From positions 1 through 35,571 of the forward strand of contig CAITVK010000082.1 in the NCBI GenBank assembly GCA_903895845.1: a DNA stretch of 35,571 bases. The letters are read 5' to 3'. Under the pieces are notes generated by a model. The model saw nothing but the letters and a program-made list of their open reading frames with translations. It was not told the DNA's origin and made no database searches. Both the position numbers and the translations under genes were made by a program. Each line of letters opens with the position of its first letter. The stretch's first letter is position 1. The stretch comes from an uncultured Chitinophagaceae bacterium. Its GTDB lineage: Bacteria; Bacteroidota; Bacteroidia; Chitinophagales; Chitinophagaceae. Positions 11,084 to 14,209 of the stretch are shown here, piece after piece.

Positions 11084-12073
11084 TTACAATAATCCTTTGC
11101 TTGTCAAATATTCAGCAATCTGAATTGCGTTGGTCGCAGCACCTTTACGAAGGTTGTCGCTCACTATCCACATATTCAAAGTTTTTGGTTGAGTCTCATC
11201 CCTACGCAAACGACCTACAAATACATCGTCTTTTTCGTGTGCCCACAAAGGCATTGGATAAAACTGTTCTGCATCATTTTGTTGTAACACAACACTTGGA
11301 GCAACTGCCAACAACGCTTTTACTTCTTCCAGATCAAACTCATTTTCAAACTCCACATTCACGCTTTCACTGTGTCCGCCCACAACTGGAATACGAACGG
11401 TGGTAGCTGTTACTTTGATGTTGTCGTCCTGCATGATTTTGCAAGTTTCTTTCACCATTTTCATCTCTTCTTTGGTGTATCCATTTTCAAGGAATACATC
11501 TATCTGAGGGATTACGTTCAGGTCAATCTGGTATTTGTAAGCTCTTTCGCCTTCAATACCTTTTCTTTCATTGAACAATTGGTCAACAGCAGCTTTACCA
11601 GTGCCAGTCACACTTTGATACGTACTTACAACGACTCTTTTTATTTTGTATTTAGTGTGCAAAGGCTGCAAGGCAACCACCATCTGAATAGTGCTACAGT
11701 TAGGGTTAGCAATTATTTTATCTTCAGCAGTCAACACATCAGCATTCACTTCTGGTACTACCAATTTCTTGCTAGGATCCATACGCCAAGCACTACTATT
11801 GTCGATAACAGTGATGCCAGCAGCTGCAAACTTAGGCGCCCACTCTGTTGATGTACCACCACCTGCAGAAAAGATAGCAACAACAGGTTTTGCATCAATA
11901 CCAGCTTGCATACCCACTACTTTGTACTTCTTGCCTTTGAATTCTACTTCTTTACCCACAGAACGCTCCGATGCTACGGGTATCAACTCAGTTACTGGGA
12001 AGTTTCTTTCGGCTAGTACTTCCAACATTTTTGTGCCTACTAGGCCTGTGGCCCCAACTACGGCTACTTTCAT
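11084..12073 (-). CDS. asd: Aspartate-semialdehyde dehydrogenase
   Basis: It reduces aspartyl phosphate to aspartate semialdehyde, the branch-point precursor of lysine, threonine, methionine, isoleucine and meso-diaminopimelate. It has 329 residues from the ATG at 12071-12073, where the NADP-binding MKVAVVGATGLVG begins; the open frame extends 21 codons further upstream but those residues are not part of the fold. The catalytic cysteine is C126 (NPNCSTIQ), and GGHSES carries the conserved histidine. An AAAGGAGAA ribosome-binding site lies just upstream. The 5' leader holds a short peptide gene and a terminator, described separately. It is not linked to other lysine genes here. Confidence 0.96.
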   Translation of the reverse strand: MKVAVVGATGLVGTKMLEVLAERNFPVTELIPVASERSVGKEVEFKGKKYKVVGMQAGIDAKPVVAIFSAGGGTSTEWAPKFAAAGITVIDNSSAWRMDPSKKLVVPEVNADVLTAEDKIIANPNCSTIQMVVALQPLHTKYKIKRVVVSTYQSVTGTGKAAVDQLFNERKGIEGERAYKYQIDLNVIPQIDVFLENGYTKEEMKMVKETCKIMQDDNIKVTATTVRIPVVGGHSESVNVEFENEFDLEEVKALLAVAPSVVLQQNDAEQFYPMPLWAHEKDDVFVGRLRRDETQPKTLNMWIVSDNLRKGAATNAIQIAEYLTSKGLL

Positions 12074-12138
12074 TTTTGTGTTCTCCTTTGTGCTGATTTC
12101 ACTCAGCGTTTTTAGATTAATAATTGATAAAAACAAAA

Positions 12139-12163
12139 CAGCCTCCCCAGAGTGGGAAGGCTG
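12139..12163 (-). terminator. Attenuator terminator in the asd leader
   Basis: On the minus strand CAGCCTTCCC (12154-12163) pairs with GGGGAGGCTG (12139-12148) over 10 bp including one G-U, with a 5-nt loop, followed by TTTTGTTTTT. It lies about 65 bp upstream of asd and downstream of the leader peptide, so it can stop transcription before the gene. The 5' half (AGCCTTCCC) can instead pair perfectly with GGGAAGGCT at 12194-12202, giving an antiterminator. Confidence 0.85.
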
Positions 12164-12190
12164 CTGTTATATTTTGAAATACACAAACGA

Positions 12191-12253
12191 CTAAGCCTTC
12201 CCTCTCGGGAATCCCTTTATTGTCTTTATTGTTGTATTTTTAAAATTTATCAT
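12191..12253 (-). CDS. asd leader peptide (20 residues, rich in Lys, Thr, Ile, Asn)
   Basis: ATG at 12251-12253 to TAG at 12191-12193. The peptide starts MINFKNTTIKTIK and ends GFPRGKA. Twelve of its residues apart from the start Met are Lys (4), Thr (3), Ile (3) or Asn (2), all products of the aspartate pathway that asd feeds. It starts a few bases after the predicted transcription start. Its last codons and stop lie on GGGAAGGCT (12194-12202), the strand needed for the antiterminator, and TTCCC-GAGA-GGGAA (12198-12211) can form a competing small hairpin. This is the layout of ribosome-mediated attenuation. Too short for gene finders; expression is inferred. Confidence 0.75.
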   Translation of the reverse strand: MINFKNTTIKTIKGFPRGKA

Positions 12254-12260
12254 TGCGGGG

Positions 12261-12291
12261 CAAATATATAATCCAGATTTAAATGGAACAA
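12261..12291 (-). promoter_or_regulatory. Promoter of the asd leader transcript
   Basis: On the minus strand TTTG ending at 12289, a 20-bp spacer and TATATTTG (12261-12268) match the Bacteroidota consensus. Transcription would start near 12254, so the leader peptide ATG lies at or within a few bases of the 5' end, and asd is translated from about 180 nt further on. Confidence 0.65.
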
Positions 12292-12384
12292 AAAAATAAT
12301 TTAATAACGGTATTTCTTTTGAGATCTTTAGTAAGTCTTTAGTGCCTATCTAACAATAATCGGCTATATAAATAATAATTTATT

Positions 12385-12455: not shown

Positions 12456-12932
12456 ATGATAGACGAAGGATTTTACCAATCAACTTATACTGGCACGAAA
12501 AGTTTTAGTCAGACAGATATACAAACAGCCAATGCCACTGGCTTTGGTGCTGCTGCCGACGACTACGCCGAAAGAGGGATTGACCTGAATGAGCAGTTGA
12601 TAATGAACAAGCCTGCTACTTTCTTTTTTAGGATGAATGGCGATGCAATGCAGGAAGCTGGCATATATCCGGGCGATATTTTGATTGTGGATAGAAGTAT
12701 AAAGGTAGCCTCTGGGAAAATAGTTGTCGCCTCGGTAAATGGCGATTTGGTAGTGCGATACTTCAAACAAACGATGAATAAATTGTGGCTAGAACCTGCC
12801 AACAATCGCTTAGGAAACATTTCCCTCGATGAGTTTACTGAATATAAACCTTGGGGAATAGTTACCTGTGTTGTACACATAATAGACCCAACATTAAGTG
12901 CCTTCAATATGCCAAACAAACGCAAGAAATGA
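12456..12932 (+). CDS. umuD: UmuD-like S24 family protein with lost protease active site
   Basis: It has 158 residues. It aligns by eye with E. coli UmuD over nearly its full length (DYAERGIDLNEQLI, GIYPGDILIVDRSI, GKIVVASVNGDLVV), but the residues needed for self-cleavage are changed. The nucleophile Ser60 of UmuD is A64 (NGDAM), the general base Lys97 is R101 (LVVRYF), and Cys24-Gly25 at the cut site is T28-G29. Spacing between these sites (36 and 37 residues) is exactly that of UmuD, so the alignment is firm. Its stop overlaps the umuC start (ATGA), so the operon is intact. It probably acts uncut as a partner of the polymerase; it should not cleave itself. Confidence 0.88.
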   Translation: MIDEGFYQSTYTGTKSFSQTDIQTANATGFGAAADDYAERGIDLNEQLIMNKPATFFFRMNGDAMQEAGIYPGDILIVDRSIKVASGKIVVASVNGDLVVRYFKQTMNKLWLEPANNRLGNISLDEFTEYKPWGIVTCVVHIIDPTLSAFNMPNKRKK

Positions 12933-14209
12933 TAGCTATATTGGATTGCAACAGCTTTTACTGTTCTTGCGAAAGGGTGTTTAGACCCGATTTGGCAGAA
13001 AGCCCCGTCGTTGTGTTAAGTAACAACGATGGTTGCATTATTGCCCGTAGCGATGAAGCAAAGGCGATTGGTGTGGGGATGGCAGGTCCTTATTTTAAGG
13101 CAAAACCATTGATAGAAGAACACGCAGTAACCGTTTTCTCTAGCAACTATAATCTGTATGGAGATATGAGTTGGCGCGTAATGGAAACTCTTAGGATTAT
13201 GATGGGAAAGGAGAATGTGGAGGTTTACTCGGTTGATGAATGTTTTATAAACCTGGCACATACTCCCAAAGAAAAGATACACGAAGTAGCATTTAGTCTT
13301 AAAGAAACGGTAGAAATCTGGACCGGTATAAAGGTTTCTGTAGGAGTAGCACCTACCAAAGTACTGAGTAAAGTTGCTAACAGATTGGCTAAGAAAAACA
13401 AAGGCGTTACCAATTGTGTATTGGTATTGGATAGTCCAAGGAAAATAGAACAAGCCTTGCAAAAAACGTTGGTGGAAGATATATGGGGCATTGGCGGACA
13501 ATACGCGGATAAACTAAGGAAGGGTGGTGTTCTTACAGCTTTTGATTTAAGTAAGAAAGATATTAGTTGGTGTAGAAAGAATCTAGGTGGCGTGGTGGGC
13601 GATCGATTGCTACGTGAATTGAAAGGGGAAATGAGTAAACTAATGGAGAATCCTTTAGTAGAAAAGAAAATTATTGCGACTACAAGAATGTTTGGAAGCC
13701 CCGTTACTGACATAAATAGTATCAAAGAAGCAATAGCTACTTATACCACAAGGGCAGCAGAAAAACTAAGAAGACAATATTGTGCGGCCAAAACAATAAG
13801 CGTCTTTGTGGTGCCTAAGGAACAAAATTACAATACACACTTTCGGCACGGACCAAGTATTGGTAGTCATACCAAGCTGCTTCGTGCGACTTCATTGACT
13901 AATGAACTGATAAAACCTGCCGTTAGTTTAGTTGAAAAGCTATTTGAAGTGGGAAGATCGTATAAAAAAGCGGGTGTAATGCTTAGTGATATTGTATTTG
14001 ACAATTCTATACAAGGCGATTTGTTTCTTCCCAATAATAAGAATGGAGGAAGGCTTTTGATGGATATGATGGATAATATCAATTTCTCAATGCGAAATGA
14101 TGTATTGAAGTTTGCGGCTAGCGGAACTGCCCGCAACTGGAAAATGCAAAAAAACTTTCATAGTCCACGTTATACAACAAGGTGGGATGAATTGCGGGAG
14201 GTACATTGA
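12929..14209 (+). CDS. umuC: Y-family DNA polymerase UmuC-like (Pol V catalytic subunit)
   Basis: A translesion DNA polymerase of 426 residues. The start is the ATG overlapping the umuD stop; a longer frame from 12851 adds residues outside the fold. Catalytic acids are D6 (AILDCNSFY) and D103-E104 (YSVDECFINL); SNNDGCIIARS is the family nucleotide-binding motif. The helix-hairpin-helix segment (DIWGIGGQYADKLRKGG), the little finger domain and the C-terminal DUF4113-like part (MDMMDNINFSMRNDVLKFA, ending TTRWDELREV) follow in normal order. Nothing looks broken, in contrast to its UmuD partner. It converges on the DUF72 gene with 3 bp between stops. Confidence 0.94.
   Translation: MIAILDCNSFYCSCERVFRPDLAESPVVVLSNNDGCIIARSDEAKAIGVGMAGPYFKAKPLIEEHAVTVFSSNYNLYGDMSWRVMETLRIMMGKENVEVYSVDECFINLAHTPKEKIHEVAFSLKETVEIWTGIKVSVGVAPTKVLSKVANRLAKKNKGVTNCVLVLDSPRKIEQALQKTLVEDIWGIGGQYADKLRKGGVLTAFDLSKKDISWCRKNLGGVVGDRLLRELKGEMSKLMENPLVEKKIIATTRMFGSPVTDINSIKEAIATYTTRAAEKLRRQYCAAKTISVFVVPKEQNYNTHFRHGPSIGSHTKLLRATSLTNELIKPAVSLVEKLFEVGRSYKKAGVMLSDIVFDNSIQGDLFLPNNKNGGRLLMDMMDNINFSMRNDVLKFAASGTARNWKMQKNFHSPRYTTRWDELREVH

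Follow-up and report, generated by a model that had tools for sequence, protein, structure and literature searches.

A putative leader-peptide attenuator rich in lysine and threonine codons precedes asd in the Chitinophagaceae

The aspartate-semialdehyde dehydrogenase gene (asd) of an uncultured Chitinophagaceae bacterium, located on a stretch of DNA of 35,571 nucleotides that was analysed as a whole (the window), is very probably preceded by a ribosome-mediated, leader-peptide transcription attenuator that senses the charging of the lysine and threonine tRNAs, and hence the supply of aspartate-family amino acids. As judged by comparison of relatives, the element is a conserved switch in which a predicted antiterminator and a predicted intrinsic terminator are mutually exclusive.

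The components of the element occupy the minus strand 180 nt before asd, in the order promoter boxes, leader ORF, strand 2b, strand 4, strand 5 and T tract. The -33 promoter element TTTG (12289..12292) and the -7 element TATATTTG (12261..12268, of the form TAnnTTTG), which are separated by 20 nt and form a promoter of the Bacteroidota type, are read directly from the DNA, as is the leader ORF (12191..12253), in which the ATG at 12253 opens a peptide of 20 codons, MINFKNTTIKTIKGFPRGKA, that is closed by TAG at 12193-12191; leaders are also present in relatives. The initial annotation had described exactly these features, and its count of 12 Lys, Thr, Ile or Asn among the 20 residues is right. 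It had also placed GGGAAGGCT on the last leader codons and a perfect partner 31 nt downstream, and both are found. The former, strand 2b (12194..12202, assigned by the swap test described below), can pair either with strand 2a (UUCCC, 12207..12211, from the fold and the swap test) or with its perfect complement, strand 4 (AGCCTTCCC, 12154..12162, read directly and supported by covariation), the latter pairing being the antiterminator. Strand 4 is common to antiterminator and terminator; the 3' arm of the terminator is strand 5 (GGGGAGGCT, 12140..12148, from the fold), and the T tract TTTTGTTTTT follows (12129..12138, read directly). A terminator with a T tract that shares strand 4 had been correctly recognized, and its length needs revision from 10 bp to the 13 pairs given by RNAfold. 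Two further helices had been missed. Strand 1, which lies on the control codons (12229..12239), pairs with strand 3, directly after the stop codon (12177..12186), both being assigned from fold and covariation. In the fold, helix 1:3 joins 12239-12229 with 12186-12177, and hairpin 2a:2b joins 12211-12207 with 12202-12198.

The full-length minimum-energy fold of the window element combines the terminator with helices 1:3 and 2a:2b. The folding z-score is -5.46 and none of 200 shuffles is as stable, which, taken together with the conservation in the family, indicates that the element is not a product of chance. The gene presumably controlled, asd (11084..12073, minus strand), was identified by the NCBIfam models TIGR01296 (asd_B, 425.6 bits) and NF011456 (440.4 bits), both above cut-off. 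Since the gene upstream (12456-12932, plus strand) is divergent from asd, the terminator cannot belong to the end of a preceding gene. This neighbor encodes a UmuD-like protease subunit (NF007621, 121.3 bits, above cut-off) and is overlapped by a UmuC-like ORF (12851-14209, plus strand; NF002955, 356.8 bits, below its cut-off of 431).

For comparison, 110 asd loci of relatives were assembled (30 plus 80 named loci, one of which, labelled Chitinophagaceae, is the contig of a genus-mate of the window). Scanning and hand curation yielded an element at 53 of the 110 loci, most of them by way of a filter requiring at least five Lys plus Thr codons, with seven starts placed and three elements cut by hand; removal of a duplicate (L031) left 52 elements, aligned as A1. 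The covariance model R1 was built from these 52 relatives' elements with the off-structure (1:3, 2a:2b, 4:5) set by hand. At E <= 0.01 it has matches in 142 of the 195 genomes of the family, representing 77 of 101 genera, and at E <= 1e-5 in 113 of them; the 29 genomes in between match only at E > 1e-5, and 53 family genomes are without a match. The surroundings of 110 R1 matches were examined, of which 97 lie directly before asd on the same strand: 30 of the 30 best, which are roughly 20-200 nt upstream of the gene (distances accurate to about 10 nt), 60 of 60 weaker ones and 7 of 20 second-copy loci. The remaining matches precede dapA (8), hisG (3), lysA (1) and, at one locus, no assigned gene. 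Across the 80 named loci (533 kb) R1 produced 25 matches, every one before asd and none elsewhere, with no match in loci labelled Mucilaginibacter, Pedobacter, Sphingobacterium, Dyadobacter, Spirosoma, Flavobacterium or Algoriphagus; three of the 80 (L057, L068 and L083) comprise less than 240 nt before asd, too short to count as absence. Cultured relatives with the element include Niabella ginsengisoli, Sediminibacterium roseum and Niastella yeongjuensis. Among 395 genomes of the phylum 23 match. Eleven belong to the family, with E at 1.4e-6 or better; the other 12 lie outside it and all match weakly (E 4.1e-5 to 1e-3). On this sequence comparison the element, with its leader, promoter box, codon bias and stems, is conserved in the family Chitinophagaceae.

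The -7 box scores at least 5/6 (best of 13 positions before the ATG) in 50 of the 52 elements, 4-10 nt from the ATG, and a TTG is found 16-24 nt upstream of it in 43 of the 52, a count made without a shuffle control. According to the part of PMC9723704 on promoters, the box spans -12 to -5 relative to the transcription start, which would put the start near 12256 and leave a 5'UTR of about 3 nt in the window and of 0-6 nt across the elements. The asd mRNA would then be nearly leaderless, beginning about 3 nt before the leader AUG. Such a start, if correct, is unusual, since the same part of PMC9723704 gives 5.5% leaderless mRNAs for Flavobacterium psychrophilum and the relevant portion of PMC7366714 gives about 3.7% of 5'UTRs below 10 nt for Bacteroides thetaiotaomicron.

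Covariation was assessed by a swap test, in which each strand is paired with the partner strand from other species and the result is compared with its own pair. The test was applied to 36 representatives of the 52 training elements and to 54 representatives of 71 held-out elements from asd and dapA. These 71 were retained from 75 because each has less than half of its 8-mers in common with every training element. In the held-out alignment (A2) the helices of the off-structure were fitted by R1, whereas 2b:4 is not part of the model and is free of such fitting. The z-scores in the 36 representatives are -8.3 for 1:3, -10.6 for 4:5, -4.9 for 2b:4 and -2.5 for 2a:2b, and those in the further 54 are -9.9, -11.4, -5.9 and -2.6, respectively; the covariation of 2a:2b is weak. 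Eight other segment pairs that served as controls range from -1.0 to 2.7 and from -1.9 to 2.8 in the two sets, and are partly not flat, as 3:4 deviates in the opposite direction (2.7, 2.8) and 2a:4 in the same direction (-1.0, -1.9). Changes on both sides occur in 23 of the 28 off-structure pairs, a number reached in none of 500 shuffles. The off-structure is paired in 82.7% of its alignment cells overall, with 93.9% for the terminator helix and 68-76% for 1:3 and 2a:2b. RNAalifold applied to A1 recovered the terminator alone, and the swap test was used in its place. A hairpin inside strand 3 (3:3') was also considered and was dropped, having no covariation (z -0.5, 36 representatives). Thus, four predicted helices covary, namely the terminator 4:5, the antiterminator 2b:4, and 1:3 and 2a:2b, and this covariation indicates that strand 4 and strand 2b are each under selection for two mutually exclusive pairings. 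Alignment of relatives had been proposed initially as a check on the leader frame and stems; the leader frame proves to be conserved, and the stems both conserved and covarying.

The codons of the leader are biased in the zone where this matters. In the stall zone of the 36 representatives, Lys, Thr, Ile, Asn and Met together make up 72% of codons compared with 47% in shuffles, none of 200 shuffles reaching the observed value, and the other two frames contain 53 and 30 stops, the leader frame being open by selection. Within the 52 leaders the stall zone contains Lys in all 52, Thr in 48, Ile in 39 and Asn in 30. Of the four amino acids named in the initial annotation, Ile and Asn are most frequent in the window's own genus. 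Lys and Thr have frequencies of 0.32 and 0.16 among the codons at which stalling would keep 2b accessible, and of 0.07 and 0.02 among those at which the ribosome would cover it. The codons for the pathway products therefore sit where stalling frees the antiterminator. Codon counts on the 52 elements lean upward owing to the filter of at least five Lys plus Thr in part of the gathering, and 59 held-out asd leaders picked without that filter give Lys 0.24 and Thr 0.11 of all codons, compared with 0.24 and 0.14 in the set of 52. The leader start in the held-out elements follows a box by 2-12 nt in 67 of 71, including one clearly wrong pick (L370) that was kept in the counts. Adenine occupies 74, 50 and 36% of codon positions 1, 2 and 3 of the stall zone. 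As 74% of the codons begin with A (Ile, Met, Thr, Asn, Lys and some Ser and Arg), members of this group may replace one another, as in the core KHTKRTKK, which recurs in this or near forms in many relatives, and its counterpart NTTIKTIK in the window.

Polybasic chains slow ribosomes, and the recurrence of KHTKRTKK or near forms in many leaders would suit an arrest peptide, in which the nascent chain itself, or a ligand bound to it, halts translation and codon identity is of minor importance. This explanation is very unlikely, as the stretch NTTIKTIK of the window is hardly basic, part of the conservation of the core is accounted for by the pairing of strand 1 with strand 3, and the same build uses His at hisG and Trp at trpE.

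The latter two genes were examined with a strict scan for promoter, leader and terminator that is blind to the amino acids encoded, and with a looser scan that allows one mismatch in the promoter box and counts His or Trp leaders only with two His or with Trp-Trp. The strict scan returned one candidate each at 15 of 22 hisG loci, all with three or more His. In the genome of the window, hisG (L166, G000 C18:18129-21671) has the His leader MNTTGILHHYYHVIPNG and a terminator after a TAnnTTTG box. For trpE, the 16 best of the 36 trpE-family matches listed were scanned, the others being weaker. The strict scan found 2 of 16, both with Trp-Trp-Trp, a low yield that reflects promoters one base off the strict pattern at most trpE loci, and the looser scan found Trp-Trp-Trp leaders at 14 of the 16, along with a few non-cognate candidates. 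Upstream of trpE in the genome of the window (L278, G000 C62), the Trp-Trp-Trp leader MSNSILNNNWWWHTNLVRGL is likewise followed by a terminator. Lys, His and Trp account for 0.24, 0.05 and 0.001 of the codons in asd leaders, whereas His accounts for 0.27 in the hisG set and Trp for 0.16 in the trpE set, both sets being counted by virtue of having His or Trp. In relatives, the strict scan gave no candidate at any of 30 dapA, 21 ilvD or 30 aspartokinase loci, taken from 44, 24 and 53 matches, respectively, and the looser scan of 29 dapA loci gave a single candidate, non-cognate and from the genome of the window. These scans are usable as background, and they also show control of dapA to be confined to certain genera. 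That the codons follow the pathway at asd, hisG and trpE constitutes the strongest argument for the ORF as a codon sensor.

The same observations bear on the alternative that the short ORF is incidental and that the element is a metabolite riboswitch or a terminator/antiterminator to which a protein binds. A structured 5' region with alternative pairing is what such a device would display. It is nonetheless highly improbable here, given the lack of an Rfam match, a codon composition and zone that are constrained while the other frames are closed, and the cognate codons that elements of this layout carry before his and trp genes. The short terminated transcript, which is predicted here too, could also act mainly in trans, as a regulatory RNA or through a small peptide, for which rnTrpL/peTrpL of Sinorhizobium is a precedent (PMC10117765, in the portion on that system). 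This is extremely unlikely, as the peptide end varies among relatives and the covarying 2b:4 antiterminator is most sensible in cis; such a role and attenuation are compatible rather than exclusive.

In ribosome-mediated attenuation, the course of events at the asd leader, from transcription start through translation, stalling and termination to the amino-acid response, would be as follows. RNA polymerase would start some 3 nt upstream of the leader AUG and be followed by a ribosome translating the leader. When charged Lys or Thr tRNA is scarce (in the window's genus, Ile or Asn as well), the ribosome would stall within the first 13 codons and hold strand 1, leaving 2b free to pair with strand 4, so that the terminator is blocked and transcription continues into asd. 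With a sufficient supply of amino acids, the ribosome would reach the stop codon and cover 2b, and strands 4 and 5 would form the terminator. With no ribosome nearby, helices 1:3 and 2a:2b probably hold 2b.

A stall model, in which the footprint of the ribosome is masked and the probability of the antiterminator is computed for the 52 elements, gives 0.83 when the ribosome sits on Lys/Thr codons. When it sits at the stop, the value is 0.02, and it is less than 0.2 in 49 of 52 elements. The codon-sensing attenuation proposed in the initial annotation is therefore backed by these values, by the conserved and covarying stems and by His at hisG and Trp at trpE. In the RNA cut before strand 5 and free of ribosomes, the antiterminator probability averages 0.72, is 0.96 in the window and falls below 0.5 in 11 of 52 elements. 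The fold model of untranslated RNA thus favours the antiterminator in 41 of 52, even though 1:3 and 2a:2b covary. This departure of the thermodynamic model from the expected off-state is a weak point of the attenuation reading. Helices 1:3 and 2a:2b are able to form before strand 4 is synthesized.

None of the 4227 families of Rfam 15, which include Thr_leader, Bacteroid-trp, asd RNA and the lysine riboswitch, matched the window at gathering score, and none matched the locus L001, which holds the element, at E <= 0.5. The asd element resembles the enterobacterial leaders of the thr, his and trp operons (Rfam Thr_leader, RF00506, and the his and trp counterparts) in that a leader ORF carries cognate codons, antiterminator and terminator exclude each other, and biosynthetic genes are controlled. 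Unlike these leaders, the asd element has no Rfam match, combines Lys and Thr codons at asd, has a strand 1 that pairs across a nested hairpin, and may be nearly leaderless. Lopatovskaya 2010 may list attenuators of Bacteroidetes. Among the closest known cases is SEP5, a small ORF of Sinorhizobium meliloti that contains six codons for Thr and three for Lys. It lies in the 5'UTR of a gene named there as aspartate dehydrogenase, and for it translation was seen and a leader peptide proposed (PMC10117765). Both are proposed Thr/Lys leader ORFs; SEP5 is alphaproteobacterial, reportedly conserved in Sinorhizobium only and, in the passages of PMC10117765 that describe it, is presented without an attenuator structure. 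The same source, where it treats trpL of S. meliloti, describes an attenuator leader ORF that begins at the RNA 5' end, as would the asd leader, in a different phylum and before a different gene. Bacteroid-trp RNA (RF01692) is introduced in the relevant part of PMC2864571 as a candidate cis-regulatory RNA of Bacteroidetes, related to trp by name; at E <= 0.5 it matches neither the trp leaders of L278, L268 and L273 nor the asd element of L001. A survey of 2010, in the portion concerned (PMC2965389), reports leader peptides beyond Proteobacteria and Actinobacteria only in Firmicutes, as its own find, the ermC leader aside. Within the phylum, leader-peptide attenuation has been suggested for amino-acid biosynthesis operons of Flavobacterium psychrophilum, with conserved 5' elements of pheA and hisG (PMC9723704), in a section that contains neither asd nor anatomy or codons. 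The initial annotation knew of no asd attenuator described in Bacteroidota, and the literature searches, within the listings and passages that they returned, yielded no description of the element at asd in this phylum. The mechanism is classical and has already been suggested in Flavobacterium.

The Bacteroidota, an abundant phylum, have ribosomes in which the Shine-Dalgarno contact is hidden, and their transcription and translation may or may not be coupled closely enough for classical attenuation. Family-wide attenuators with cognate codons that begin practically at the 5' end of their transcripts would be ready test cases for such coupling. The asd leader would also offer a peptide-based sensor of lysine and threonine; to our knowledge, lysine control of such genes has so far been by riboswitch. 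On balance, the evidence leans modestly towards a broader picture, in which nearly leaderless attenuators at asd, hisG and trpE (at dapA and lysA in some genera, and perhaps at thrA) are a main amino-acid control of the Chitinophagaceae and the asd leader is a joint sensor of the whole aspartate family.

Several observations concern further genes of these pathways. The 20 second-copy places, most of them in family genomes where R1 matches more than once, were fetched and assigned by NCBIfam (dapA, hisG, lysA) or by eye (asd), giving 8 before dapA, 7 before asd, 3 before hisG, 1 before lysA and 1 without assignment. The last (L154 248-359) is a match of 52.4 bits with no long ORF within 600 nt downstream. 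The copies before dapA (TIGR00674, above cut-off) are at L141, L143, L145, L147, L149, L152, L153 and L158, and their leaders are rich in Lys, with a lower share of Thr, 0.066 compared with 0.11 to 0.14 in the leaders of asd. A weak copy of 47.1 bits (L160 221-343), with Lys and Thr codons in its leader, precedes lysA (TIGR01048, 392.3 bits). In the genome of the window, thrA (aspartokinase/homoserine dehydrogenase; L242, G000 C114) lies downstream of a Thr-rich leader, MKRQQNIVLFPTAVSTTATTLFTTTL, which is similar in several genus-mates. No T-tract terminator was seen for this leader, which was left out of the attenuator counts; the sequence immediately preceding its ATG is able to pair with a stretch further downstream that is conserved. 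Weak R1 matches outside the family were inspected by eye at nine loci from 7 of the 12 genomes, of which six showed no Thr/Ile leader of the kind found at the other three. These three (L303 1501-1632, L309 1501-1634 and L310 1501-1633), from another family (f22), have the Thr/Ile leader MTINNTTIITIITTG or a close form of it, with a terminator. At L303 there is a match to Rfam Thr_leader below threshold (40.5 bits compared with 55). The gene that follows all three leaders, cut off by the end of the stretch, encodes an aspartate kinase/homoserine dehydrogenase (NF006959, 558-584 bits).
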